From contig NZ_JADWYQ010000001.1 of NCBI RefSeq assembly GCF_022414575.1, positions 271,241 to 335,240 on the forward strand: a DNA stretch of 64,000 bases, in the 5' to 3' direction. The position numbers and the translations under genes were made by a program. Below the pieces are notes generated by a model. The model worked only from the letters and a program-made list of their open reading frames with translations. It was not told the origin of the DNA and searched no databases. This document shows positions 5,906 to 16,320 of the stretch, piece by piece. How positions within the stretch are numbered: the first letter of the stretch is position 1; each line of letters opens with the position of its first letter. This DNA comes from Streptomyces sp. MUM 178J. GTDB lineage: Bacteria > Actinomycetota > Actinomycetes > Streptomycetales > Streptomycetaceae.

Positions 5906-6060
5906 GCCGGGCTGACGAAGCGGCGCGGCGAACGGCCCGGTCCGGCGGGACGCCGCGCGGCGCTCCGCCGGGCCCGGGCGATCGCCCGGTCCGGCCCGTC
6001 CCCCGAGGCCGGGCCGGGCCGATAGCCGGCGGTCAACTCGGCTACCCCCGTGAGCAAAGT

Positions 6061-6155
6061 TAGCTGTCAGCTATCGGCAGGGTCCACGTTGGCGGACTCG
6101 CGCTCGATTGTCAACTAACAGCTAATCTGCGAAAATGGTAGATAGCTGAGAGCTA
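6061..6155. promoter_or_regulatory. Array of TAGCTG-type palindromes before the EspR-like gene
   Basis: Three related sites occur in an unusually AT-rich stretch: a perfect palindrome TAGCTG-T-CAGCTA (6061-6073), a variant TAACAGCTAA (about 6116-6125), and TAGCTG-A-GAGCTA with one mismatch (6143-6155). A possible -35 TTGTCA lies at 6108-6113. Their number and position suggest autoregulation by the following DNA-binding protein. Lines 6121-6180 are 28/60 G+C by hand count. Confidence 0.65.
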
Positions 6156-6186
6156 AACCAAGGAGGTGACAGAAGGGAGATACACC

Positions 6187-6627
6187 ATGTCCGAGACGGA
6201 GGACCGGCCCAAGCTGGCCGTGCGCCTGGACAAGCTCTTCAAGACGGTTCGCCCCAAGGGCAAGCACTGGACCAATGCCGAGGTGGCGGAGGAGCTGAAG
6301 CGGATCAACCCCGAACTCAGGGTCGGAGGGGTGTATCTGTCGCAGTTGCGGACGGGCAAACGCTCCAATCCCTCACCGGACCTGCTCGCCGCGCTGGCTC
6401 GCTTCTTCGGTGTGTCGGTCGCCTACTTCTTCGACGACGAGGTCGCCGAATCGGTGCTGAGCGAAGTCGCCGCCATCGAGGCGCTCCGGCAGGCGGGGGT
6501 CCGCTCCGTGGCGATGCGGGCGGCCGGGATGAAGAAGGAGAACCTCCAGGCCATCACGGCCATCATGGACCAGTACCGGCAGATGCAGGGCCTTCCGCCC
6601 GTCAACGACACCTCAGAGGCCGAGTGA
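6187..6627 (+). CDS. EspR-like helix-turn-helix regulator
   Basis: A 146-residue DNA-binding protein. The N-terminal half is a helix-turn-helix of the EspR type known from Mycobacterium: RLDKLFKTV, then YLSQLRTGKRSNPSP, then ALARFFGVSVAYFFDDE. The C-terminal half is helical and should form the dimer. EspR proteins bind AT-rich or palindromic DNA and can act as architectural regulators. The ATG at 6187 is preceded by AAGGGAG with 7-nt spacing; an in-frame GTG at 6166 overlaps another AAGGAGG and is less likely. It sits immediately downstream of an array of palindromes that it probably binds. It converges on the minus-strand epimerase gene with 17 bp between stops. A paralogue lies at 27712. 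Confidence 0.88.
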   Translation: MSETEDRPKLAVRLDKLFKTVRPKGKHWTNAEVAEELKRINPELRVGGVYLSQLRTGKRSNPSPDLLAALARFFGVSVAYFFDDEVAESVLSEVAAIEALRQAGVRSVAMRAAGMKKENLQAITAIMDQYRQMQGLPPVNDTSEAE

Positions 6628-6644: not shown

Positions 6645-7583
6645 CTACCCGGCGCCCAGCCGCTCACGCCACCAGTCCACCGTCGCTCGGATCTGCTCGT
6701 CGAGCGGGGTGGCCCGTACCGTGAACGCGGCTTCGTAGGCGCTTGAATCCACGGTGAACGGACGGTCGAACTGGTAGCGGATCTCCTTCAGTCCACGGAC
6801 CAGCGGCGAGAAGACCGACGCGACCGCCAGGGCGGCCGGCGGCACCCTGCGCACGGGGACCGGCCCCGACTCCGCCCGGGCGGCGAGGCGGTCGACCATC
6901 TCCCGAGTGGACAGCCAAGGCGCCGTCGGCACGTGCCAGGCCCGTCCCCAGGCCCGCTCCTCCCCCGCGACCTCGACCAGGGCGCCGGCCACATCAGGGA
7001 GATAGGTCCAGCTGTGCGGGGCGTCCGGGTCCCCGAGCGTGGAGACCGGCTTGCCGCGCAGCAGTCGCGGCATGACCCGCCCTGCCAGATGCCCGCCGTC
7101 GGTCACACCGGGTCCGAAGAAGTCCGAGGCGCGCACCTCGACCGCCTTGATGCGGCCCTGCTCGTGCAGTCCCCGCGCCTGCTCCCAAACGGCCGCGCGC
7201 ACCCGCCCCTTGGGGCCGGTCGCCGCGAGCGGCAGCTCCTCGGTCATGGGCCCGTCCACCGGCCCGTACCCGTAGAGGTTGCCCAGCATGACCAGGACGG
7301 CCCCGGTCGCCTCGGCCGCCGCGCAGAGCGACGACGCCAGCGGCGGCCACTCGGTCGCCCATCGGTGGTAGGGCGGTGCGGCACAGCTGAAGACCGCGGC
7401 AGCGCCCTGTGTGGCGCGGATCAGGCTCTCGCTGTCCGTCGCGTCCAGCGCGACATGCTCGATGCCGGGCTCCGGGCTGCGGCCCGACTTGGTGACGACC
7501 CGTACCGAATGGCCCTGCTCGGCCAGTTGCCGAGCGGTGGCCGCTCCGGCGGGCCCGAATCCCACGATGACGTAAAGGCTCAC
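6645..7583 (-). CDS. NAD-dependent epimerase/dehydratase family protein
   Basis: A 312-residue short-chain-type protein with an N-terminal dinucleotide motif (VIVGFGPAGAATARQL, residues 5-20) and the extended-SDR plan: LGNLYGYGP, then EVRASDFFGPG and TYLPDV. The usual catalytic YxxxK is not obvious (NLYGYGP occupies the region), so it may be an atypical member or act on an unusual substrate. It uses a GTG start. It lies 35 bp after the STM4011 gene on the same strand and could be the last gene of that operon. Its substrate is unknown; if it belongs to the operon it would modify or oxidise the pathway product. Confidence 0.85.
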   Translation of the reverse strand: MSLYVIVGFGPAGAATARQLAEQGHSVRVVTKSGRSPEPGIEHVALDATDSESLIRATQGAAAVFSCAAPPYHRWATEWPPLASSLCAAAEATGAVLVMLGNLYGYGPVDGPMTEELPLAATGPKGRVRAAVWEQARGLHEQGRIKAVEVRASDFFGPGVTDGGHLAGRVMPRLLRGKPVSTLGDPDAPHSWTYLPDVAGALVEVAGEERAWGRAWHVPTAPWLSTREMVDRLAARAESGPVPVRRVPPAALAVASVFSPLVRGLKEIRYQFDRPFTVDSSAYEAAFTVRATPLDEQIRATVDWWRERLGAG

Positions 7584-7618
7584 GGTCGCACACTAGCCCG
7601 AGGGCCTGTCGCTTCTCC

Positions 7619-8482
7619 TCATGACGTCGTGCGGCCGGCCGCCCCGGCGGGGATGCGCTCCAGCACTCCCCCGGCGAAGACGTCGTACAGCGGGAGCGTC
7701 TCCAGATGGACGTAGCCGATATGGCAGTCGCACGACGTGAGCGGGCAGGGGCGGGGGGAGAGGGCGGAGCGGTAGGAGCCGTCGTAGAGGTTGCCGAGTT
7801 CCGTGCGGACGAAGTGGCAGCGGCGGACCGTGCCGTCGCCGTCCACCGAGATGACCGACTCGCCGGTGCGGCAGGGCAGGCCGGCGGAGCGGTGGGGGCT
7901 GCGGCTGTACGGGAAGAGAGGGTCGAGCGCGGTCCACACAGCCGCTTCGTCGTCCGTGTAGGCGTGCCCCTCCGCGGCGTTGACCCAGAGGTAGACGTGG
8001 GCGGGCAGGGCAGCGCGGAGGCGGCGGGCGTGCTCCAGGTGCGCTGGCAGGCCGACGACGCCGACGCTGAAGCGGACGCCCCGGTCGGCCAGATCCCGGG
8101 TCTTGGCCAGGAAGCGGTCGTACGGGGTTTCACCGGGGTGGTACGTGCACCACAGCGCCACGGTGTCCGGGTCGGCCTCCGCGAGCCATCCGGTGCGGCA
8201 GCTGAGGTTGGTCTGGATGGCGACGCGTTCGATGTGCGGCTGGTGGGAGAGTTCGACGAGGGCTCGCCGGTACCAGGAGCGGACCAGCCCTTCTCCCCAG
8301 GGGGTGAAGAGGACGGAGAGCCGGTCGTCGGACCGCAGCGCGGCCCAGTCGGTGAAGCGGGTGAGGGCGGCGCGGTCGGCGCGCAGCTGGGCGGCCGTGT
8401 CACGTCGCTTGGCGAACGGGCAGTAGGGGCAGTCGTAGTCGCAGGAGGCGAGCGGGCCCCGGTACAGGATCGTCAGGTCCAC
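7619..8482 (-). CDS. STM4011 family radical SAM protein
   Basis: A 287-residue radical S-adenosylmethionine enzyme. The cluster motif C14-DYD-C18-PY-C21 binds the SAM-reducing [4Fe-4S]. Further cysteines near the C-terminus (LPCRTGES, RRCHFVR, CPLTSCDCHIG) look like an auxiliary iron-sulfur cluster, as in SPASM-type enzymes that modify peptides. Overall it matches the family named after Salmonella STM4011. It starts with GTG, 5 bp after the STM4012 stop, with a GAGG motif in the preceding gene's end. It should act with the second radical SAM enzyme encoded immediately upstream. The substrate is not known; a peptide or protein substrate is an inference from the auxiliary cysteines and the ATP-grasp neighbour. 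Confidence 0.88.
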   Translation of the reverse strand: MDLTILYRGPLASCDYDCPYCPFAKRRDTAAQLRADRAALTRFTDWAALRSDDRLSVLFTPWGEGLVRSWYRRALVELSHQPHIERVAIQTNLSCRTGWLAEADPDTVALWCTYHPGETPYDRFLAKTRDLADRGVRFSVGVVGLPAHLEHARRLRAALPAHVYLWVNAAEGHAYTDDEAAVWTALDPLFPYSRSPHRSAGLPCRTGESVISVDGDGTVRRCHFVRTELGNLYDGSYRSALSPRPCPLTSCDCHIGYVHLETLPLYDVFAGGVLERIPAGAAGRTTS

Positions 8483-8487
8483 GGCGG

Positions 8488-9825
8488 CTACTTCGCCTCG
8501 TACGCGGCCATCGCCGCGCGTACGGCCGGTGAGAACAGCATGGGGCCCAGTGCGTCGGAGTGGGCCAGGCCTTCCGGGGTGAGGCGCAGCAGTTCACCGG
8601 CGCCGTCGCCGTCCAGCCAGCCTTCGGCGGCGAACGCTGCGAGTTCGTCGGGGAAGTCGTCGTGCGGGCCGGCGTCGAAGCGGGCACGGTAGTCGGCGAC
8701 GGGCATGCCCTGGGCCTGGAGCAGCGACTGCAGCAGATGGCGGCGGCGTGCCTCGTCCCCTTCCATGTGCCGGCCGTGCACGGCACGGGTGAAGTCCTCC
8801 GTCGCCGTGTAGTCGTCGATGATCGCCCGTATCTCTCCCATGTCGACGGCGTAGTCGAAGGAGTAGTGCAGCGTGGAGGTGTAGGAGCGGGCGCCGCAGC
8901 CGAGGCCGATCATGCCGTCGGTCTGGCAGGAGTGGTCGTCCGGGCCCTGCGAAGGCGCGTCGGTCCGGCGGAACATGCGCATGGAGACCTGTTCATAGCC
9001 GTGCGCGAGGAGGTGGTCGCGGCCCTGCCGGTAGAGGCCGAGCCGCTGCCGGTCCCATGCGCCGTCGGTGTGGGCGGTGCGGCGGGCCAGGCCGGTGAGG
9101 GGGCGGACGTACAGCGGGTAGAGGTAGAGCTCCTCGGGGCGCCAGGCGAGGGCGGCGTCCAGGGAGGTGCGCCAGCTGTCCGGGGTCTGGCCATCAATTC
9201 CGTAGATGAGGTCGATATTGAGGACGGGGATGCGGGCGTCGCGGATGCGGCCCAGGGCGGCCTCGACGTCGGCGCGGCGCTGCGGCCGCACGGCGGTCCT
9301 GGCTTCGGCGTCGACGAAGCTCTGTACGCCGAGGCTGAGGCGGGTCGCGCCGCGTTCGGCGAGGACGGCCAGCCGGTCGGCGGTGGCGGTGGCGGGTGAC
9401 GCCTCCACGGACAGCGGAACGGCGCGCAGTTCGACGCCCATACGCTTCTCCGCGATGTCGCACAGCCGGGTCAGCTCGTCGGCGCTCAGAAAGGTGGGGG
9501 TGCCGCCGCCGAAGGCGGCGCTGGCGAACCGCACCGGTCCCCCGCCGTCGCCCAGCGCGTCGCGGACGGCCGTCGCCTGGCGGTCGAGGGCGTCGAGATA
9601 GCGGCCGGTGAGCCCGTCGGGGGCGCCGATCCGGGTGAAGAGGTTGCAGAAGCCGCAGCGGACCTCGCAGAAGGGGATGTGCAGGTAGAGGGAGAGCGCG
9701 TCCTTGCGTTCACCGCGCCACAGGTCGCTCAGGGCGGGCCCGGGCTCGGGGAGCGGACGGTACGCGGTCTTGTGGGGGTAGGCGTAGACGTAGCTCTGGT
9801 AGGGGCGGGGGGTTACGGCGTTCAT
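8488..9825 (-). CDS. STM4012 family radical SAM protein (HemW/HemN-like)
   Basis: A 445-residue radical SAM enzyme related to HemN/HemW. It has C53-EVR-C57-GF-C60 in the usual YLHIPFCxxxCxxC context, then AFGGGTPTFL and SVEASPAT and LSLGVQSF, and a HemN-type C-terminal domain. It is therefore from the coproporphyrinogen-oxidase-like branch but belongs to the STM4012 subfamily, so haem synthesis is not its likely job. The ATG at 9825 overlaps the STM4013 stop as ATGA, showing translational coupling; GGAG is 9 nt upstream. An upstream ATG 14 codons earlier lies inside the previous gene and is unlikely. Members of this branch can transfer methyl or methylene groups or bind haem; which applies here is unknown. 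Confidence 0.9.
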   Translation of the reverse strand: MNAVTPRPYQSYVYAYPHKTAYRPLPEPGPALSDLWRGERKDALSLYLHIPFCEVRCGFCNLFTRIGAPDGLTGRYLDALDRQATAVRDALGDGGGPVRFASAAFGGGTPTFLSADELTRLCDIAEKRMGVELRAVPLSVEASPATATADRLAVLAERGATRLSLGVQSFVDAEARTAVRPQRRADVEAALGRIRDARIPVLNIDLIYGIDGQTPDSWRTSLDAALAWRPEELYLYPLYVRPLTGLARRTAHTDGAWDRQRLGLYRQGRDHLLAHGYEQVSMRMFRRTDAPSQGPDDHSCQTDGMIGLGCGARSYTSTLHYSFDYAVDMGEIRAIIDDYTATEDFTRAVHGRHMEGDEARRRHLLQSLLQAQGMPVADYRARFDAGPHDDFPDELAAFAAEGWLDGDGAGELLRLTPEGLAHSDALGPMLFSPAVRAAMAAYEAK

Positions 9826-10685
9826 ACGGAGGGCTCCAGGAAGAAATGGGCGTACGGCACGGTCCACACGGCTTCGTGGCCGAGGCGGTGGCCGGTGTAG
9901 CCGTCGTCGCCGTAGGCGGTGCCGTGGTCGGAGCAGACGACGGCGAAGCAGCGGCGGCGGGAGCTCATCGCGGCGAAGAGGCGGCCGATGTGCCGGTCGA
10001 CGTACTCCAGGGCCGCGGCGTGGGTGGCGCGGGTGTCGCCGGCCTCGCGCGAGGCTCCGTGCAGATGGAACCAGTTGGGCTGGTGCAGCGCGGAGATGTT
10101 GAGGAAGAGGAAGAGCCTTCGGCCGACGGGGAGTTCGGAGACGATCCGCTCCGCGCGCGCGAGCTGCGCCTCAAAGGACGTCGGGGAGGCCACGCCGAAC
10201 TCCGGCTCCCAGTGGCTCTCCTGGAACATCCCGGGGAGTACGCCGCCGAGCGCCCCCTGCTTGTTGAAGAAGCCGACGCCGCCGATGCACACCGTGCGGT
10301 ATCCGGCTGCGGCGAGGCCGGAGACGAGGTCGGGGGTGTCGAAGACATAGGTGCGGCCGGCGGTCGTCTCACTGCCCGCGAAGCGGGCGGCGAACAGCCG
10401 GGGGTGCGGGCCGGGGGCGGCGGGCGTGGGCAGGAACCCGGCGAACATGGCCTGGTGGGAGGCGTAGGTGAAGCTTCCGGGAGCGTGGCGCTTCTCCCAG
10501 ACGCCGCCGGGGAGGCGCCGGGCGAGGTGGGGAATGCGCCCGGCGGCGGCCAGTTCGGCGGCGACGTCGTAGCGGAGGGTGTCGAGGGTGACCAGGAGCA
10601 GATCGTCGCGGCCGACGACCTCGTTCATGTCGGGCATGTCGAGCACGTCGGGATGGGGTACGGGGCGGGGCGTGGGCGGGGTCAT
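9822..10685 (-). CDS. STM4013/SEN3800 family hydrolase (sulfatase/alkaline-phosphatase fold)
   Basis: A 287-residue protein of the sulfatase-like superfamily. The first metal-ligand strand reads LLLVTLDTLRYDV (D35, T36), and the C-terminal metal motif is VVCSDHGTAYGDDGYTGHRLGHE. There is no CxPxR formylglycine sulfatase motif, so it is more like the phosphotransferase or phosphodiesterase members that use a Thr or Ser nucleophile; the Thr in LDTLRYD is the candidate. It matches the STM4013/SEN3800 family that always travels with STM4012 and STM4014. The ATG at 10685 overlaps the STM4014 stop (ATGA). No signal peptide, so it is cytoplasmic. The substrate is unknown. Confidence 0.87.
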   Translation of the reverse strand: MTPPTPRPVPHPDVLDMPDMNEVVGRDDLLLVTLDTLRYDVAAELAAAGRIPHLARRLPGGVWEKRHAPGSFTYASHQAMFAGFLPTPAAPGPHPRLFAARFAGSETTAGRTYVFDTPDLVSGLAAAGYRTVCIGGVGFFNKQGALGGVLPGMFQESHWEPEFGVASPTSFEAQLARAERIVSELPVGRRLFLFLNISALHQPNWFHLHGASREAGDTRATHAAALEYVDRHIGRLFAAMSSRRRCFAVVCSDHGTAYGDDGYTGHRLGHEAVWTVPYAHFFLEPSV

Positions 10686-11791
10686 GTCCGGGAGCGGTTC
10701 CTCGGGTGGCGGGGGTGCTGTACGGCGGCGACTTGGGCGGCGTAGGCGTCCAGGCCCTCGGCGCCGCTGCCGGGCAGTCCGGTGATGCCGGGCAGCAGGT
10801 CCCCGAAGGCGTTGACCTCGCCGACGGCGAATCGCCGCCAGCCGACGGCCGGGAGCAGATCGACGCCGACGCACAACGTGCCGGGGAAGCAGGCCGCGGC
10901 GCGTTCACAGATCTCCAGGGCGATGCTCCAGCGGTCGCCTGCCGCCGTGACGGCGGCGGTCAGATCGCCGCGCCGTCCGCCGAGGTGGAGGTTGGTCATG
11001 GGGGAGCGGCTGGTGCGGACGACGGCGTGCGTGGCCCGGCCGGCCACCACGACGACGCGGAGGTCCGCCGACCGGCTGCCGCCGAGGGAGGCCTTGGGCC
11101 ACCAGCGCTCGATGTGCAGTCCGTCCGGGGCGAGGGCGTCGACCAGGGCGGCGAGCTCCGTTTCGCTTGTACTGCGCTGTATGCGCAGGGAGTTGAACAG
11201 CCGGCCGTCCGCGTCCCGCTCCACGGAGGTGGCCGCCCGCACCCGGCCGGGGCCCGCCGTTTCGACGGCGACGACTCCGGAGGCGGACGACCCGTGGGCC
11301 GGCTTGAGGAACACGCGCGGCATGCCGTGCGCGTCCATCAGGGACCGGACGTCGTCCCAGCCGCGCACCGGAACGCCGCCGCCGGTCGTGGGGGAGGCGG
11401 GGACGGGGACCCCGGCCTCGTCCAGCGCACGGTGGCAGAGCCGCTTGTCGAAGAGGACGGCCAGCTCGTCGGGGTCGTCGAGCCGTATGCCGCCGGTCAG
11501 TGTCCGCACCGCGGCGGTGAACCGCGCGTACCAGCGGGCGCCGCCCTCCACGCGGGTCGGGTCGTCCGCACCGCGCAGCGCGCGGTCCACGGCCGCGTTC
11601 TCCCCCGGCGAGTCGAGCCGCACCACCTCGTCGGCGGCGAAGGCCGCTCCGCCGTCGCGCAGCACGTCCGTCCAGGCCGTGATGCGCGGGGCGGGCAGCC
11701 CGGCGTCCGCCACGGCCCTGGTGAACATCACCACGCGGCGGTTCTCCGGGTTGCCGACGACCGCGAACCGCGGACGGGTCTTGCTCAGCAT
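10682..11791 (-). CDS. STM4014 family protein (ATP-grasp fold)
   Basis: A 369-residue protein of the ATP-grasp type, like RimK and other amide ligases. Visible elements are FDKRLCHRALDEAGVPVPAS (the usual capture motif before the ATP domain), RVFLKPAHGSSASGVVAV (the ATP-binding lysine and glycine-rich loop), and GEVNAFGDLLPGI, with the Mg2+-binding Glu and Asn near the end. ATP-grasp enzymes form a peptide-like or ester bond through an acyl-phosphate. It is the second gene of the operon, 20 bp after STM4015, and overlaps STM4013 by 4 bp. It could ligate an amino acid or a peptide that the radical SAM enzymes then modify; this is inference. The ATG at 11791 fits the family's N-terminus (PRFAVVGNPENRR). 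Confidence 0.86.
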   Translation of the reverse strand: MLSKTRPRFAVVGNPENRRVVMFTRAVADAGLPAPRITAWTDVLRDGGAAFAADEVVRLDSPGENAAVDRALRGADDPTRVEGGARWYARFTAAVRTLTGGIRLDDPDELAVLFDKRLCHRALDEAGVPVPASPTTGGGVPVRGWDDVRSLMDAHGMPRVFLKPAHGSSASGVVAVETAGPGRVRAATSVERDADGRLFNSLRIQRSTSETELAALVDALAPDGLHIERWWPKASLGGSRSADLRVVVVAGRATHAVVRTSRSPMTNLHLGGRRGDLTAAVTAAGDRWSIALEICERAAACFPGTLCVGVDLLPAVGWRRFAVGEVNAFGDLLPGITGLPGSGAEGLDAYAAQVAAVQHPRHPRNRSRT

Positions 11792-11811
11792 GGCCGTGCG
11801 GTCCGCGTCCG

Positions 11812-12789
11812 CTACTCGCCGACCGCCACGAAGCGCCACACCTTGCCGTCCCACTCGTCCTCGTCCGCGTCGCCCCGGTCGAGGTCGAGGGTCACGCCGG
11901 CGCTCTGAAGCGCATCCCGGAAGCGCTGCCGCAGCGGCTCGCTGAGGTAGTTGTGGTGCAGGTCGAGCTTGGTGAGATGGGTCAGGGGCTGCCCGTCGAG
12001 CAGCGCGGCCGCGCCCTCGTCGGTGAGGACGCCCATGGACAGGTCCAGGGTCCGAAGCCGGGCGACGACCGGTGCAGCGGCCATGGCGGCGGCTATCCGG
12101 TCCTGCATGTCGCTGTTGCGCAGCGCCAGATGGCGCAGGTTCGGCAGCCGGGTCCCTTCGAGGAAGGGCGTCAGATCCGAGAGCTCGCTGTCCGCTCCGT
12201 ACTCCTTCGTGCCGAGCCACAGGTCGAGGCGTTGCAGGCCGGGGAGATCGCTGGCGGCGACGGCCCGCACGACGCCGGCGGACAGGCCGCCGCTCTCGAC
12301 GGTGAGGGAACGCAGCCGGCGGCTGGTCAGCGCGGGGAACTCGAGACCCGCGCCGCCGCGGACGCCGAACTCCTCCAGCTCAGGGAAGCCGTTCAGCAGC
12401 GGGCCGACGTCGCCCTGGTTGATCCAGGAGATCTCGCACTCCTCCCACTCCATGTCGCCGAGGAACAGCGCCCGCAGGGCGGGCAGCCGGGGCCGGGCGG
12501 CGAGAAGCGCGTCGATCACATGCTCGGGGCCGGTCTCGTACGCGTCCGTCCAGGCGCCGACGACGATCGACCGGACGCGGGCGGTGTCGACGGCCGCGGT
12601 GAACCGCGCGAAGGCCTCCGGCCAGGTCTCCTCCGCGTCATAGACGTCGGCGGAGATCCGCCATGCGACGGCGTCGGCCTCGGGGAGGGCGACCGGGCCC
12701 TGGCGGTCCTGGTCGCCCCGGTCGTCCGGCCCGGGAAAGTCGAAGACGGGAAGTCCGTAGGACTCCCGGAGGTGTTCCGCTGCGCTCAT
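11812..12789 (-). CDS. STM4015 family leucine-rich-repeat protein
   Basis: A 325-residue cytoplasmic protein. After an N-terminal WGR-like or sensor-like segment it carries several leucine-rich repeats (for example LRTLDLSMGVLTDEG and LTKLDLHHNYLSEP) and ends in an acidic DADEDEWDGKVWRF stretch. Such proteins bind other proteins or peptides rather than catalyse. It is the first gene of the STM4015-4011 operon. It could be the scaffold that presents the substrate to the ATP-grasp and radical SAM enzymes, or itself be modified; the sequence does not decide. The ATG at 12789 has AAGGAG 10 nt upstream. An upstream in-frame TTG-type extension has no ribosome site and is ignored. The promoter must lie in the 226 bp before the divergent P450 gene. 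Confidence 0.87.
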   Translation of the reverse strand: MSAAEHLRESYGLPVFDFPGPDDRGDQDRQGPVALPEADAVAWRISADVYDAEETWPEAFARFTAAVDTARVRSIVVGAWTDAYETGPEHVIDALLAARPRLPALRALFLGDMEWEECEISWINQGDVGPLLNGFPELEEFGVRGGAGLEFPALTSRRLRSLTVESGGLSAGVVRAVAASDLPGLQRLDLWLGTKEYGADSELSDLTPFLEGTRLPNLRHLALRNSDMQDRIAAAMAAAPVVARLRTLDLSMGVLTDEGAAALLDGQPLTHLTKLDLHHNYLSEPLRQRFRDALQSAGVTLDLDRGDADEDEWDGKVWRFVAVGE

Positions 12790-13015: not shown

Positions 13016-14245
13016 ATGGCAGAACCGTCCCGTGTGGTGATGGACCCGACCGGACGCGACATCCACGAGGAGGCCGCCCGCATACGGGCCCGCGGGCCGC
13101 TCACACGCGTCGAACTCCCCGGCGGGGTCGAGGCGTGGGCGGTCAGCTCCCCCGCGCTGCTGAAGGAGCTGCTCACCGATCCGCGGGTCTCCAAGGACCC
13201 GCGCCGCCACTGGCCGGCATGGATCGACGGCGAGATCTCCCCCGAGTGGCCGCTGTTCACCTGGGTCGCGGTGGAGAACATGTTCACCGCCTACGGCGAG
13301 GAGCACACCCGGCTGCGCACCCTGGTCGCCAAGGCGTTCACCGCGCGCCGCACCGCCGCGCTGCGGCCACGCATCGAGGAGATCACCGCCGGCCTGCTGG
13401 ACCGCATCGCCGAGGAGGGGCGGGACGGCGGCGTGGTGGATCTGCGGGAGATGTACGCCTATCCGCTGCCGATCCAGGTGATCAGCGAGCTGTTCGGGCT
13501 GCCCGAGGGCAAACGGGACGAGCTGCGCGCCGTCGTGGACAGCATCTTCCACACCTCCGCCGACCCGGAGGAGGTCACCGCGACCTACGCCCGGCTCTAC
13601 GCCGTCATGGCCGAACTCGTCGCCGCCAAGCGGGAGTCGCCCGCCGACGACATGACCAGCGGGCTGATCGCCGCCCGCGACGACGGGGGCGAGTCCCGGC
13701 TCAGCGAGCAGGAGCTGCTCGGCACCCTGGTCCTGATGATCGGCGCAGGGCACGAGACGACGGTCAATCTGATCGACAACGCCATCCACGCCCTGCTCAC
13801 CCATCCCGAGCAGCTCGCACAGGTGCGCAAGGGCCTCGCCTCCTGGGACGACGTCATCGAGGAGAGCCTGCGCCATGACGCGCCGGTCGCCAGTCTGCCG
13901 CTGCGCTACGCGGTGGAGGACATCGAGGTGCCCGGCGCCGCGGTGATCCGCAAGGGGGAGGCGATCCTCGCCGCGTACGCCGCCGCCGGGCGCTGTCCCG
14001 AACGCCACGGCAAGGACGCCGACCGCTTCGACGTCACCCGCCCGGACAAGGAGCATCTGGCCTTTGGCCACGGCGTCCACTTCTGCCTGGGCGCGTCCCT
14101 CGGCCGGCTGGAGGCCCGCATCGCGCTCCCCGCGCTCTTCGAGCGGTTCCCCGGGCTGACCCTGGCCGTCCCGCCCGAAGAGCTGCGCCCCGTGGACTCG
14201 TTCATCTCCAACGGGCACCGCGACCTGCCCGTACGGCTCGGCTGA
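13016..14245 (+). CDS. Cytochrome P450 (CYP154-like)
   Basis: A 409-residue soluble bacterial P450. It has the oxygen-binding I-helix motif AGHETT (about residue 244), the K-helix ExxR (ESLR, about residues 284-287), and the haem loop [12 protein letters not shown] with the cysteine ligand at about residue 357. All catalytic elements are intact. It resembles the CYP154 family, which in Streptomyces is typically paired with a CYP157-like P450 inside conservon operons, as here: the next gene converges on it with only 6 bp between stops. It hydroxylates an unknown small molecule, with electrons from ferredoxin. AGGGAGG precedes the ATG by 5 nt. Confidence 0.93.
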
Positions 14246-14251
14246 CCGCGC

Positions 14252-15673
14252 TCACTCACCGCCCCGCCACCAGCTCCGCAGCCCGGACCACAGGCGCCGT
14301 GCCCTGCTCGTCCCCGCGGCGGCGGGCTGGTGCGCCCAGGGCGGCACGGGGCGGGGCCGCGCGGCCGTCTGCCGCGGCTGCCGGTCCGGCTGCCCGTCGG
14401 GCTGCCGCTCGGGAGTGTCCCCGAGGACGCTCCCGGCGGGCGGGAAGCGCACGGGCAGCGCGGCGAGCGCCCGGTGGAACGGCCCGGGCCGCCACACCAG
14501 TTCTTCGGCGGCCACGGCCAGCTCCACATCGGGCAGCCGGTCCAGCAGCTTCTCGACCGCCACGGAGGCGATCAGCCGGGCCGGTCCCTGCGCGGGACAG
14601 GCGTGCGGCCCCGCGCTCCACGCCAGATGGGCGCGGTTGCCCGCGCGGCGCTCCGCGGTCAGCGCGGGGTCGGTGTTCGCCGCGGCGAAGCTGATGACCA
14701 GCGGCTCGCCTTCGCGCAGCAGCGCACCTTCGTACCGGACGTCGTGGACGGGGAAGTGCACGGCGTAGTTGGCCATGGGCGGGTCCGTCCACAGCACCTC
14801 GTCGAGCGAGTCGTCCACCGGCAGGCTGCCGCCGGACAGGCTGCCGGCGAAGCGTTCGTCGGAGAGCAGCAGTCGCAGGCTGTTGGCTATCAGGTTCTGC
14901 TGGGGCTCGGTGCCCGCGCCCATGAGCAGGACGAGGGTGTGGACGAGTTCCTCGTCACTGAGCCCCGCGGGGTGTGCGATCAGCCAGGACGTCACATCCT
15001 GTGCGGGCCGGCCGCGTTTGAGGCCGACGAGCTCCGTCACGGTCCGGGTGAGCAGCTCGTTCGCCTTCTCCGCGTCCACGCCGTCGAAGATCCCCGACAT
15101 GCCCTCGACAAGCCGGTCCCCGATGTCGGGCGGGCAGCCGAAGAGCCGGTTGAACACCAGCAGCGGCAGGGGCTGTGCGTACGCGGCAAGCAGATCCGCG
15201 CTTCCGTGCGCCGCGAACCGGTCGATGAGCGTGTCGGCGGTCTGCTCGACATGCCCGCGCAGGGCGCTGGGCTCCACTCGCCCCAGGCTGTCGGTGATGG
15301 CCTCGCGCAGCCGACGGTGCTCCTGGCCGTCCGTGAGGAGGGCGTTCGGCCGGTACGCCATCATCGGCACCACCGGGCTGTCCGGCGGGACGGTGCCGTC
15401 GGCGAGGTCGCGCCAGCGGCGCGAGTCCTTGGAGAACGTCTCCGTGGTGCGCAGCACATGCAGGGCGGCGTCGTAGCCGGTGACGAGCGTGGCGCGGACG
15501 CCGGGGGCCAGTTCGACCGGCGCGGTCGGCCCGGCCGTGCGCAGCCTGCGGTAGACGGCGGCCGGGTCGGCCGCGAAGGCGGGGCCGTAGAGCGGCTCCT
15601 GCGGGGAACCGTCTCCGGCGTGCACGGGGCAGCCGGGTGAGGAGTGTTCGGGCGTGGGAAGGGGTGCGTTCAC
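14252..15673 (-). CDS. cvnE: Atypical cytochrome P450 of a conservon (CvnE; CYP157-like, no ExxR)
   Basis: A 473-residue P450 fold protein, last gene of the conservon. The haem cysteine is present (AGPHACPAQ, C359), but two otherwise near-universal motifs are altered. The K-helix ExxR reads E292-V-L-W295, and the I-helix reads GAGTEPQQN in place of AGxxTT. This is the hallmark of CYP157 proteins, which bind haem but keep Glu-x-x-Trp. The C-terminus carries an extra Pro/Arg/Gln-rich tail of about 65 residues (DGQPDRQPRQ and following). The start is GTG, overlapping the CvnD stop as GTGA. Whether it is catalytic or serves as a haem sensor for the conservon complex is not known. Confidence 0.88.
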   Translation of the reverse strand: MNAPLPTPEHSSPGCPVHAGDGSPQEPLYGPAFAADPAAVYRRLRTAGPTAPVELAPGVRATLVTGYDAALHVLRTTETFSKDSRRWRDLADGTVPPDSPVVPMMAYRPNALLTDGQEHRRLREAITDSLGRVEPSALRGHVEQTADTLIDRFAAHGSADLLAAYAQPLPLLVFNRLFGCPPDIGDRLVEGMSGIFDGVDAEKANELLTRTVTELVGLKRGRPAQDVTSWLIAHPAGLSDEELVHTLVLLMGAGTEPQQNLIANSLRLLLSDERFAGSLSGGSLPVDDSLDEVLWTDPPMANYAVHFPVHDVRYEGALLREGEPLVISFAAANTDPALTAERRAGNRAHLAWSAGPHACPAQGPARLIASVAVEKLLDRLPDVELAVAAEELVWRPGPFHRALAALPVRFPPAGSVLGDTPERQPDGQPDRQPRQTAARPRPVPPWAHQPAAAGTSRARRLWSGLRSWWRGGE

Positions 15674-16320
15674 GCTTGCTCCAGAGGGCGGGCATGGCCG
15701 GTACGGGACTGCAGATACTCGACGAGCGCGATCAGCGCGCGGGCGGAGGAGGCCCGGTCGCGTGCGTCGCACCGCACGAGGGGGGTTTCGTCAAGCAGGT
15801 CGAGGGCCTCGCGGATCTCGTCGAGGGTGTGGGCGGGCGCGCCGGGGAACTCGTTGACGGCGACCGCGTAGGGGATGGCCAGTTCCTCCAGTACGCCCAT
15901 GACGTCGAAGGAGCTGCTCAGCCGGCGGGTGTCGGCGAGGACGAGCGCACCGAGCGCTCCTCGGGTCATGTCCTGCCACAACCGGGTGAAGCGGTGCTGT
16001 CCGGGCGCGCCGAAGAGATACAGCACCAGGCTGTCGCTGAGGGTGAGTCGGCCGAAGTCCATGGCGACGGTGGTGGTCGTCTTGCCGGAGACGCCTGCCA
16101 GATCGTCGACCAGCGCGCCGGCCTGTGTCATCAGCTCCTCGGTGTGCAGGGGCCGGATCTCGGACAGCGCGCCGACGAAGGTGGTCTTGCCCACCGCGAA
16201 GTGCCCGACGACCAGGAGCTTGGCCGCGGTGCGCACACCCGGCCCGACATGGACGCCGCTGTGGTGGCCGGCGGCGGCGTGACCGACGGCGCCGCGGTCA
16301 GAGGAGGGAGCGGAGCCCAT
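15670..16320 (-). CDS. cvnD: Conservon small GTPase (CvnD)
   Basis: A 216-residue Ras-like GTP-binding protein of the prokaryotic MglA-related group. G1 P-loop is GHFAVGKTT (about residues 39-47); the switch region has FGRLTL and the G3 loop LFGAPGQ; the usual NKxD base-recognition motif is replaced by VNEF. It would cycle between GTP and GDP forms with the roadblock protein CvnB acting on it, as in other conservons, which link a sensor-kinase-like membrane protein to development or metabolism. It overlaps CvnC by 23 bp upstream and CvnE by 4 bp downstream, so the whole set is translationally coupled. Confidence 0.92.
   Translation of the reverse strand: MGSAPSSDRGAVGHAAAGHHSGVHVGPGVRTAAKLLVVGHFAVGKTTFVGALSEIRPLHTEELMTQAGALVDDLAGVSGKTTTTVAMDFGRLTLSDSLVLYLFGAPGQHRFTRLWQDMTRGALGALVLADTRRLSSSFDVMGVLEELAIPYAVAVNEFPGAPAHTLDEIREALDLLDETPLVRCDARDRASSARALIALVEYLQSRTGHARPLEQA

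Follow-up and report, generated by a model that had tools for sequence, protein, structure and literature searches.

A five-gene operon, STM4015 to STM4011, occupies positions 7619-12789 on the minus strand of a 64,000-nucleotide stretch of DNA from Streptomyces sp. MUM 178J (contig NZ_JADWYQ010000001.1), the whole of which is called the window here. It encodes a protein of leucine-rich repeats (LRR), STM4015, together with an ATP-grasp ligase, a hydrolase of the alkaline phosphatase superfamily and two radical S-adenosylmethionine (SAM) enzymes. The gene set is co-inherited, and STM4015 ends in a glutamate in every operon-linked copy examined, while this residue is lost from some of the copies that lie elsewhere. 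It is probable that the tail of STM4015 is a handle or a substrate of the operon's enzymes. More specifically, and with some reserve, we favor a reading in which STM4015 is a carrier whose terminal Glu is loaded by STM4014 and whose attached group is processed by STM4011, STM4012 and STM4013.

The genes run in the order 4015-4014-4013-4012-4011, and all five products score above the cut-offs of their NCBIfam families, which are precisely the families named after this operon. Neighboring genes share ATGA overlaps at 10682-10685 and 9822-9825 or are separated by gaps of 20 bp (STM4015/STM4014) and 5 bp (STM4012/STM4011). The five families, their order and their tight coupling had been described in an earlier note made from the letters of this stretch, and the coordinates, overlaps, gaps and family scores agree with it. 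Pfam models recover LRR, Sulfatase-superfamily and Radical_SAM domains among the five proteins, with ATP-grasp as a trace and no match for STM4011. The genes (coordinates including the stop codon) and the C-terminal features of STM4015 are:

11812-12789, minus strand: STM4015, LRR protein, 325 aa, proposed carrier or substrate; NF038076, 390 bits against a cut-off of 275
11836-11901, minus strand: acidic variable linker of STM4015, about residues 297-318; mean column entropy 2.3 bits
11815-11835, minus strand: C-terminal heptapeptide RFVAVGE of STM4015; invariant terminal Glu, codon GAG, stop TAG
10682-11791, minus strand: STM4014, RimK/LysX-like ATP-grasp ligase, 369 aa; NF038074, 437 bits against a cut-off of 175
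9822-10685, minus strand: STM4013, alkaline-phosphatase-superfamily hydrolase resembling nucleotide pyrophosphatases/phosphodiesterases (NPPs), 287 aa; NF038075, 424 bits against 250
8488-9825, minus strand: STM4012, HemN-like radical SAM enzyme, 445 aa; NF006067, 642 bits against a cut-off of 380
7619-8482, minus strand: STM4011, radical SAM enzyme with a SPASM/twitch-like C-terminus, 287 aa; NF038073, 416 bits against 200

An invariant glutamate at the end of operon-linked STM4015

STM4015 gives weak matches to Pfam LRR models and is acidic, with an isoelectric point of 4.5 for the window copy and of 4.2-4.6 in 9/9 sequences. The linker that precedes the heptapeptide is more variable than the non-core positions of the LRR body (2.3 vs 1.35-1.62 bits). 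These entropies come from 52 sequences that had been pre-filtered on a terminal Glu; the count of 52/52 in that set is circular and was not used.

Terminal Glu is present in 122/122 operon-linked STM4015 copies, a set restricted to open reading frames (ORFs) whose stop codon lies within the retrieved sequence, and in 18/18 clusters at 60% identity. A copy in stretch L214, also ending in Glu, is labelled unlinked solely because its fetched piece ends inside STM4014. In 15 additional actinomycete stretches from other genera, our own choice from a class-wide sample of 296 genomes, the same residue closes 39/39 copies, of which 37 are enzyme-linked. It likewise closes 120/120 STM4015 homologues among the matches listed, window copy included; the homologue sets hold the best 120 of 2546, 4331 and 7494 matches and are dominated by Streptomyces. 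The tails read RYVAVGE in Streptomyces, RFVALGE in Deinococcus, RYPSLTE in Paenibacillus, MNAMYTE in Salmonella, MTPMFTE in E. coli, YYPMITE in Bacteroides and RSIAVSE in Methylobacterium, and residue -6 varies (Y, F, S or N, for example). As a control, the C-terminus of STM4014 is Glu in 1/120 listed homologues. A start/stop overlap as the source of the residue was ruled out: 49/122 STM4015 genes (window left out, L214 included) end in TAA or TAG, so the last codon is not forced by an overlapping start, and both Glu codons are used.

Fifteen STM4015 copies are unlinked, namely 12 located away from the main operon copy in a listing of 101 Streptomyces genomes, one in L064 and two in L253. Glu is kept in 9/15 of these and lost in 6/15, which separates them from the linked copies with a Fisher p of ~1e-7. 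In the genomes with a sizeable STM4015 and no STM4014 above cut-off (G173, G214, G241), Glu is lost in 3/3; this count leaves aside G175, where the operon is apparently split over contigs, and G197, which holds a fragment of 24.9 bits. The tail readings likewise leave out G197, together with G213, whose operon contains stops. Four solo relatives of STM4015 (L211, L212, L213 and L215) have a common, different C-terminus, such as SVGPLSY, and no enzymes alongside; they may have another role.

STM4015 is often duplicated within the operon. Two tandem copies occur in 29/80 relatives of the locus, and in other genera a single STM4014-4011 set can be preceded by as many as five tandem copies, all with a terminal Glu. 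Across seven arrays of at least three copies, mean identity is 56-71% for the whole copy and 60-94% for the tail, with the tail more alike than the body in 6/7. Among the five genes, divergence is also fastest in STM4015, whose mean identity to the window is 62%, against 74% for STM4014, 79% for STM4012, 83% for STM4011 and 85% for STM4013, in a comparison whose loci were chosen by STM4013 and which favors that gene.

The invariant Glu of the operon-linked copies supports the earlier suggestion that the LRR protein is a scaffold or substrate. LRR proteins are typical scaffolds, and the tail could be a docking or localisation peptide, with a free small molecule as the substrate and STM4015 merely assembling the enzymes. 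Constraint on the entire heptapeptide, beyond Glu, would suit this role, as would the somewhat lower variability of the concave LRR positions (mean entropy 1.35 vs 1.62 bits for the rest). However, strict invariance of the last residue over lineages down to 28-35% identity would be unusual for a docking peptide, and a RimK/LysX-like ligase is encoded alongside STM4015; we regard a docking role as unlikely.

Less probable still is that the enzymes modify another cellular protein or RNA, which STM4015 would bring to them as an adaptor. The paralogues with diverged bodies and a WGR domain found on Bacteroides STM4015 are consistent with such a function, but the concave positions are not hypervariable, the examined neighbors suggest no target, and the invariant Glu would be left unexplained. 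The same lower variability of the concave positions opposes an LRR that acts as a diversifying receptor. The WGR domain is N-terminal and was seen at L122:7513-8583, by a Pfam match, and at L207:1318-2394, by sequence likeness.

Distribution, co-inheritance and neighboring genes

Relatives of the locus were collected by a scan for STM4013 in genome_contigs, of which the best 80 of 571 stretches were used (78 Streptomyces, 1 Nocardia, 1 Actinacidiphila); stretches L088-L114, with weak STM4013-like matches, lie outside this gene-order listing. The five genes stand in identical order in 78/80 relatives, the exceptions (L008, L019) being interrupted by contig ends. The order also recurs in Deinococcus, Methylobacterium, Paenibacillus, Salmonella, E. 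coli and Bacteroides. The operon is plasmid-borne in Methylobacterium, three Deinococcus, Paenibacillus, Salmonella and Streptomyces. In E. coli it is chromosomal and located between ompL and typA (two examined), and the STM4012 gene is carried by 154/5426 complete genomes of this species. An intact Bacteroides-like operon was found on a contig of a viral collection (L207). A Bacteroides plasmid holds a decayed operon, in which remnants of STM4013 and STM4012 (L122:9587-9953) lie between an intact-looking STM4014 and a fusion of STM4011 with a haloacid dehalogenase (HAD) phosphatase.

Recurrence of the five-gene set exceeds chance. STM4015 was detected in 47 of the 101 Streptomyces genomes (45 above cut-off), and STM4014 and STM4011 exceed their cut-offs in 42 and 43, with 41 common to these two. 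The co-occurrence of STM4014 and STM4011 has a Fisher p of ~1e-24, and the p values obtained for these genomes (1e-23 to 1e-24) ignore relatedness. STM4015 is present in every STM4014-positive genome (42/42). In the class-wide sample, it occurs in 42/296 genomes (40 above cut-off) and 15/114 genera. The earlier note had held that homologues occurring singly and scattered would speak against a system; none of the 42 STM4014-positive genomes lacks STM4015, while solo copies of STM4015 do exist.

A second module frequently accompanies the operon. A divergent gene for a His-rich protein of ~108 aa lies beside 72/80 loci and a DUF6745 gene beside 71/80, with remnants and contig-end pieces counted in both cases. 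The ~108-aa protein has TGHxH and HxEH motifs that are invariant in ten aligned sequences. Among L001-L080 the pair lies in the upstream flank, and it adjoins the operon in other orientations in Deinococcus and Methylobacterium; stretches with the linked pair include L115-L118 and L124. Strong DUF6745 matches (>300 bits) occur in 34/101 Streptomyces genomes, all with STM4015 and with starts 1.6-2.7 kb apart, and in 0/54 Streptomyces genomes without STM4015; weaker matches (90-107 bits) were seen in the STM4015-free genomes G169, G187 and G194. The window's own genome has no DUF6745 match, and its best match to the short protein (E 0.008) is unconvincing; the pair is therefore dispensable. The ~108-aa protein has relatives in 48 viral contigs, of which 33 also hold a DUF6745-like ORF in the same stretch.

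A short precursor peptide, for which the earlier note had proposed a search, was sought by clustering the ORFs that lie within 5 kb of the 80 loci and show a codon pattern typical of streptomycetes; 25 clusters were listed, without annotation. By this filter the DUF6745 protein appears at 51 loci, the ~108-aa protein at 40 and the next cluster at 21 of 80. Besides the second module, the clustered flank ORFs include no widely conserved separate short precursor, and this candidate was dropped.

Other neighbors were examined for membership. An epimerase gene (6645-7583), which the earlier note had appended to the operon, does lie on the same strand, 35 bp downstream; its inclusion as a sixth gene was ruled out because a homologue (>60 bits) was found in 0/80 fetched stretches, of which L008 ends within the operon and L080 and L021 hold less than 2 kb downstream. 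In S. cadmiisoli a TauE/SafE transporter gene (L124:11216-11926) overlaps the end of STM4011. No relative of it is present in L001-L123 or the window, and it was dropped as an operon partner. A cytochrome P450 gene (13016-14245) is oriented divergently upstream of the operon. Along with another P450-like ORF and one resembling a small GTPase (13016-16320), it recalls a streptomycete conservon, family assignment by profile covering the first P450 of this trio. Ahead of an XRE-type regulator gene (HTH_3; 6060-6627, plus strand) stand repeated TAGCTGTCAGCTA-like words with an operator-like look.

Enzyme classes and the proposed carrier mechanism

The enzymes were compared with solved structures and with aligned relatives. 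Their main features in the window are:

10982-10996, minus strand: TNLHL block of STM4014, residues 266-270; aligned to ITN of LysX, invariant in 35 sequences
10811-10819, minus strand: ExN motif of STM4014 (E325, N327); invariant in 35 aligned sequences
10455-10472, minus strand: proposed nucleophile stretch FTYASH (T73) of STM4013; aligned with NPP LTFPNH, F72, T73 and H77 invariant (n=9)
9646-9669, minus strand: CX3CX2C radical SAM motif of STM4012 (C53, C57, C60); the fourth Cys of HemN absent
7724-7873, minus strand: auxiliary-cluster region of STM4011; five invariant Cys (204, 222, 246, 251, 253), CX12GX4C at the start

LysX is the ligase of the amino-group carrier pathway of LysW, a small globular carrier domain. 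When a profile of nine diverse STM4014 members was compared with the PDB, LysX (1uc8/1uc9) and 3vpd matched best, followed by a biotin carboxylase and then RimK (5zct/4iwx), with modest E-values of 2e-5 to 4e-4. The LysX and RimK matches take in the C-terminal region, and the LysX alignment covers the block DlRvvv...TNLhL, in which H269 is replaced by D once in a separate set of nine sequences. Family models score below their cut-offs (RimK 30.7 bits vs 143, LysX_arch 20.9 vs 276). By our mapping of the ATP-grasp residues, K116, D311, E325 and N327 are invariant and K163 is nearly so (n=35). ATP-grasp ligases are described in PMC4431377 as having two ATP-binding basic residues, an acidic one and an ExN motif. 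STM4014 appears, on these residues, to be equipped as an active ATP-grasp ligase, and the loading of a small group onto the terminal Glu of STM4015 is its tentatively assigned task.

The best PDB matches of STM4013 are NPPs (7n1s, 2gsn and 7mw8, E ~1e-7), followed by sulfatases (E from 3.5e-6). NPP-type phosphodiesterases have a Thr nucleophile stretch and a DHG metal motif. STM4013 aligns with 7n1s and 2gsn; T73, D253, H254 and H270 are invariant in nine STM4013 sequences, and one NPP metal Asp seems to be replaced by N196. By its Thr stretch and DHG motif, STM4013 is predicted to be NPP-like. The active-site motif of formylglycine sulfatases, C/S-X-P-X-R, is absent from 9/9 STM4013 sequences, with FTYASH at the equivalent place, and a sulfatase was ruled out on this ground although sulfatases are the next-best matches. 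The description as a sulfatase-fold hydrolase in the earlier note is thus refined: the likeness to sulfatases holds, and that to NPPs is closer.

In Salmonella and E. coli the gene after STM4011 encodes a HAD phosphatase, which in Bacteroides forms a fusion with STM4011. Diverged STM4013 paralogues belong to a different small cluster in S. albidoflavus (L120:9681-11252) and Kitasatospora (L123:7738-11157), where each is accompanied by a NUDIX protein and a short conserved ORF. The L123 cluster also has a radical SAM and a P-loop kinase-like protein, and its NUDIX protein and these two are named by our reading. Given such NUDIX and kinase-like neighbors, a nucleotide-like or phospho-substrate would fit.

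STM4012 matches HemN (1olt, E 2e-54) first and the methyltransferase NocN (9p2u), which acts on ribosomally synthesised and post-translationally modified peptides (RiPPs), second. It also matches the HemN, HemW and HutW families below cut-off. These likenesses would suit an operon that handles haem, with STM4012 as coproporphyrinogen oxidase or haem chaperone, and the earlier note had named haem handling as a function that would undo its proposal. HemN has the cluster motif CX3CX2CXC, with a fourth Cys, and the haem chaperone HemW has HNxxYW. Both are absent in 8/8 aligned STM4012 sequences, and no porphyrin gene was found among the annotated neighbors examined, where one truncated hemoglobin lies near the operon in L118. 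On the absent motifs the haem reading was ruled out, and we give it next to no weight. A PADLOC scan of 8 proteins returned as its sole match STM4012 to the candidate model PDC-M51A (residues 150-240, 28.1 bits, E 2e-7); with one partial match to a candidate model, the operon does not qualify as an anti-phage defence system.

For STM4011, the peptide-acting SkfB (6efn) is the sole PDB match below E 0.001 (2.6e-4) and lies within the C-terminal region. The SPASM motif consists of CX9-15GX4C, then CX2CX5CX3C and a final C. STM4011 fits the first part (C204-X12-G217-X4-C222) and differs in the second (C246-X4-C251-X-C253).

With SkfB and NocN among the closest solved relatives of the two radical SAM enzymes, STM4015 might itself be an oversized RiPP-like precursor. 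The radical SAM enzymes would then modify its own tail and STM4014 would cyclise or extend the Glu, giving a protein-borne cofactor or a peptide that is cut off later. Tandem, precursor-like STM4015 copies are consistent with this, as is the absence, by the flank-ORF filter and besides the second module, of any gene in more than 21/80 flanks, compatible with a product retained on STM4015. Graspetide loci similarly combine an ATP-grasp ligase with a SPASM radical SAM enzyme in one locus (PMC8939145); here, in contrast, no short precursor was found and the STM4015 tail has no conserved Thr/Ser/Lys ring partner. Moreover, Glu is the sole invariant tail residue, so the copies have no single reactive side chain in common, and the hydrolase and HAD phosphatase would be without an obvious role. 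We consider the precursor reading possible but rather unlikely.

The carrier reading takes its model from the amino-group carriers described in PMC9303977. In these, a C-terminal Glu is activated at its gamma-carboxylate for linkage to an amino group; once modified, the tethered group is released by hydrolysis, and the enzymes recognise negative charge on the carrier. In the mechanism that we infer for STM4015, with its ligation, order of steps, substrate and product, the acidic LRR body would dock the pathway enzymes, and the flexible acidic linker would present the C-terminal heptapeptide ending in Glu. STM4014, with ATP, would activate a carboxylate of the terminal Glu and couple to it, through an amino group, a small molecule or an amino acid. 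STM4011 (SPASM/twitch-like) and STM4012 (HemN/NocN-like) would rebuild the tethered group, and STM4013, as a Thr-nucleophile, NPP-like phosphoesterase, would remove or cleave a phospho-group, joined by the HAD phosphatase in Salmonella, E. coli and Bacteroides. The product may remain on STM4015 or be released by a peptidase encoded elsewhere.

Several observations weigh against this carrier mechanism. The likeness of STM4014 to LysX and RimK is weak, with a whole-sequence E of ~2e-5 and neither of the two LysX stretches significant alone, and a biotin carboxylase scores almost equally (E 6.5e-5). Nothing identifiable as the carrier-release peptidase, the kinase or the reductase of the LysW pathway turned up, the 25 largest neighbor clusters being unannotated. 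The nine unlinked copies that still end in Glu do so apart from the enzymes, and 4 of the 6 losses carry a similar new tail, apparently from one clade, so the independent losses may number three. In array L252, likeness among copies is not higher in the tail (0.60) than in the body (0.64). Further tail positions besides Glu are conserved, and the tail could therefore be merely a docking peptide. Finally, a warning control is provided by STM4012, which ends in Lys in 80/92 ORFs, mostly from Streptomyces; a fixed last residue within Streptomyces alone is thus weak evidence, and the weight falls on the spread of the Glu over phyla.

Relation to known systems and meaning

We compared the operon with systems that share parts of its design. 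To our knowledge, the RimK system has no radical SAM partners. Amino-group carriers (LysW/LysX, and Vzb22 of vazabitide A) share an acidic carrier with a C-terminal Glu (PMC9303977), and may share a LysX-type ATP-grasp partner, which STM4014 resembles weakly. They differ in that STM4015 is an LRR protein of ~300 residues (325 aa in the window) rather than a small LysW-type domain, and in that the five genes pair it with radical SAM enzymes and an NPP-like hydrolase in place of LysZ, LysY or LysK-type partners. Because both the small domain and these partners are missing from the five genes, the STM4015 system, by analogy, would work like an amino-group carrier rather than be one. Pearlins (TglA/TglB, TmoA/TmoB) also have groups built at the C-terminus of an encoded carrier, with a radical SAM enzyme in Tmo (PMC9303977), but their short peptide carriers are loaded from aminoacyl-tRNA by a peptide aminoacyl-tRNA ligase (PEARL). 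No PEARL is found among the five operon genes, the neighbor clusters not having been annotated one by one. RimK is an ATP-dependent glutamyl ligase that adds Glu to the C-terminus of RpsF, ribosomal protein S6 (PMC7343187), and thus acts on a different target protein.

No published function for STM4011-STM4015 was found in the literature searched, from which most subscription journals were out of reach, in line with the earlier note, which knew of no product. Within the same literature, the family names, DUF6745 and the combination of an LRR protein with radical SAM and ATP-grasp enzymes led to no paper. Within this literature the locus tags appear in two papers, each time as a table row: STM4015 in a table on positive selection and STM4013.S in one of sigma-54 binding sites. 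The five NCBIfam families had already been named, as names without function; the invariant terminal Glu of operon-linked STM4015 is new here, and neither this tail nor the tandem copies or the second module appear in any text found.

Taken as a whole, the operon may, though we lean against counting on it, represent a new carrier-protein pathway that extends from Streptomyces to Bacteroides and E. coli, in which LRR paralogues, up to five per operon, have their Glu loaded by an ATP-grasp ligase and the group rebuilt by two radical SAM enzymes and a phosphodiesterase into a cofactor or natural product. STM4014 is above its cut-off in 42/101 sampled Streptomyces genomes, STM4012 is in 154/5426 complete E. 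coli genomes, and Bacteroides has the operon. If a group is loaded on STM4015, LRR proteins would be a further kind of scaffold for tethered chemistry, beside acyl carrier proteins, amino-group carriers and pearlin peptides, and a new metabolite or cofactor would be the probable outcome of the radical SAM steps. The invariant terminal Glu turns a set of genes of unassigned function into one testable question, that of a mass on the C-terminus of STM4015.

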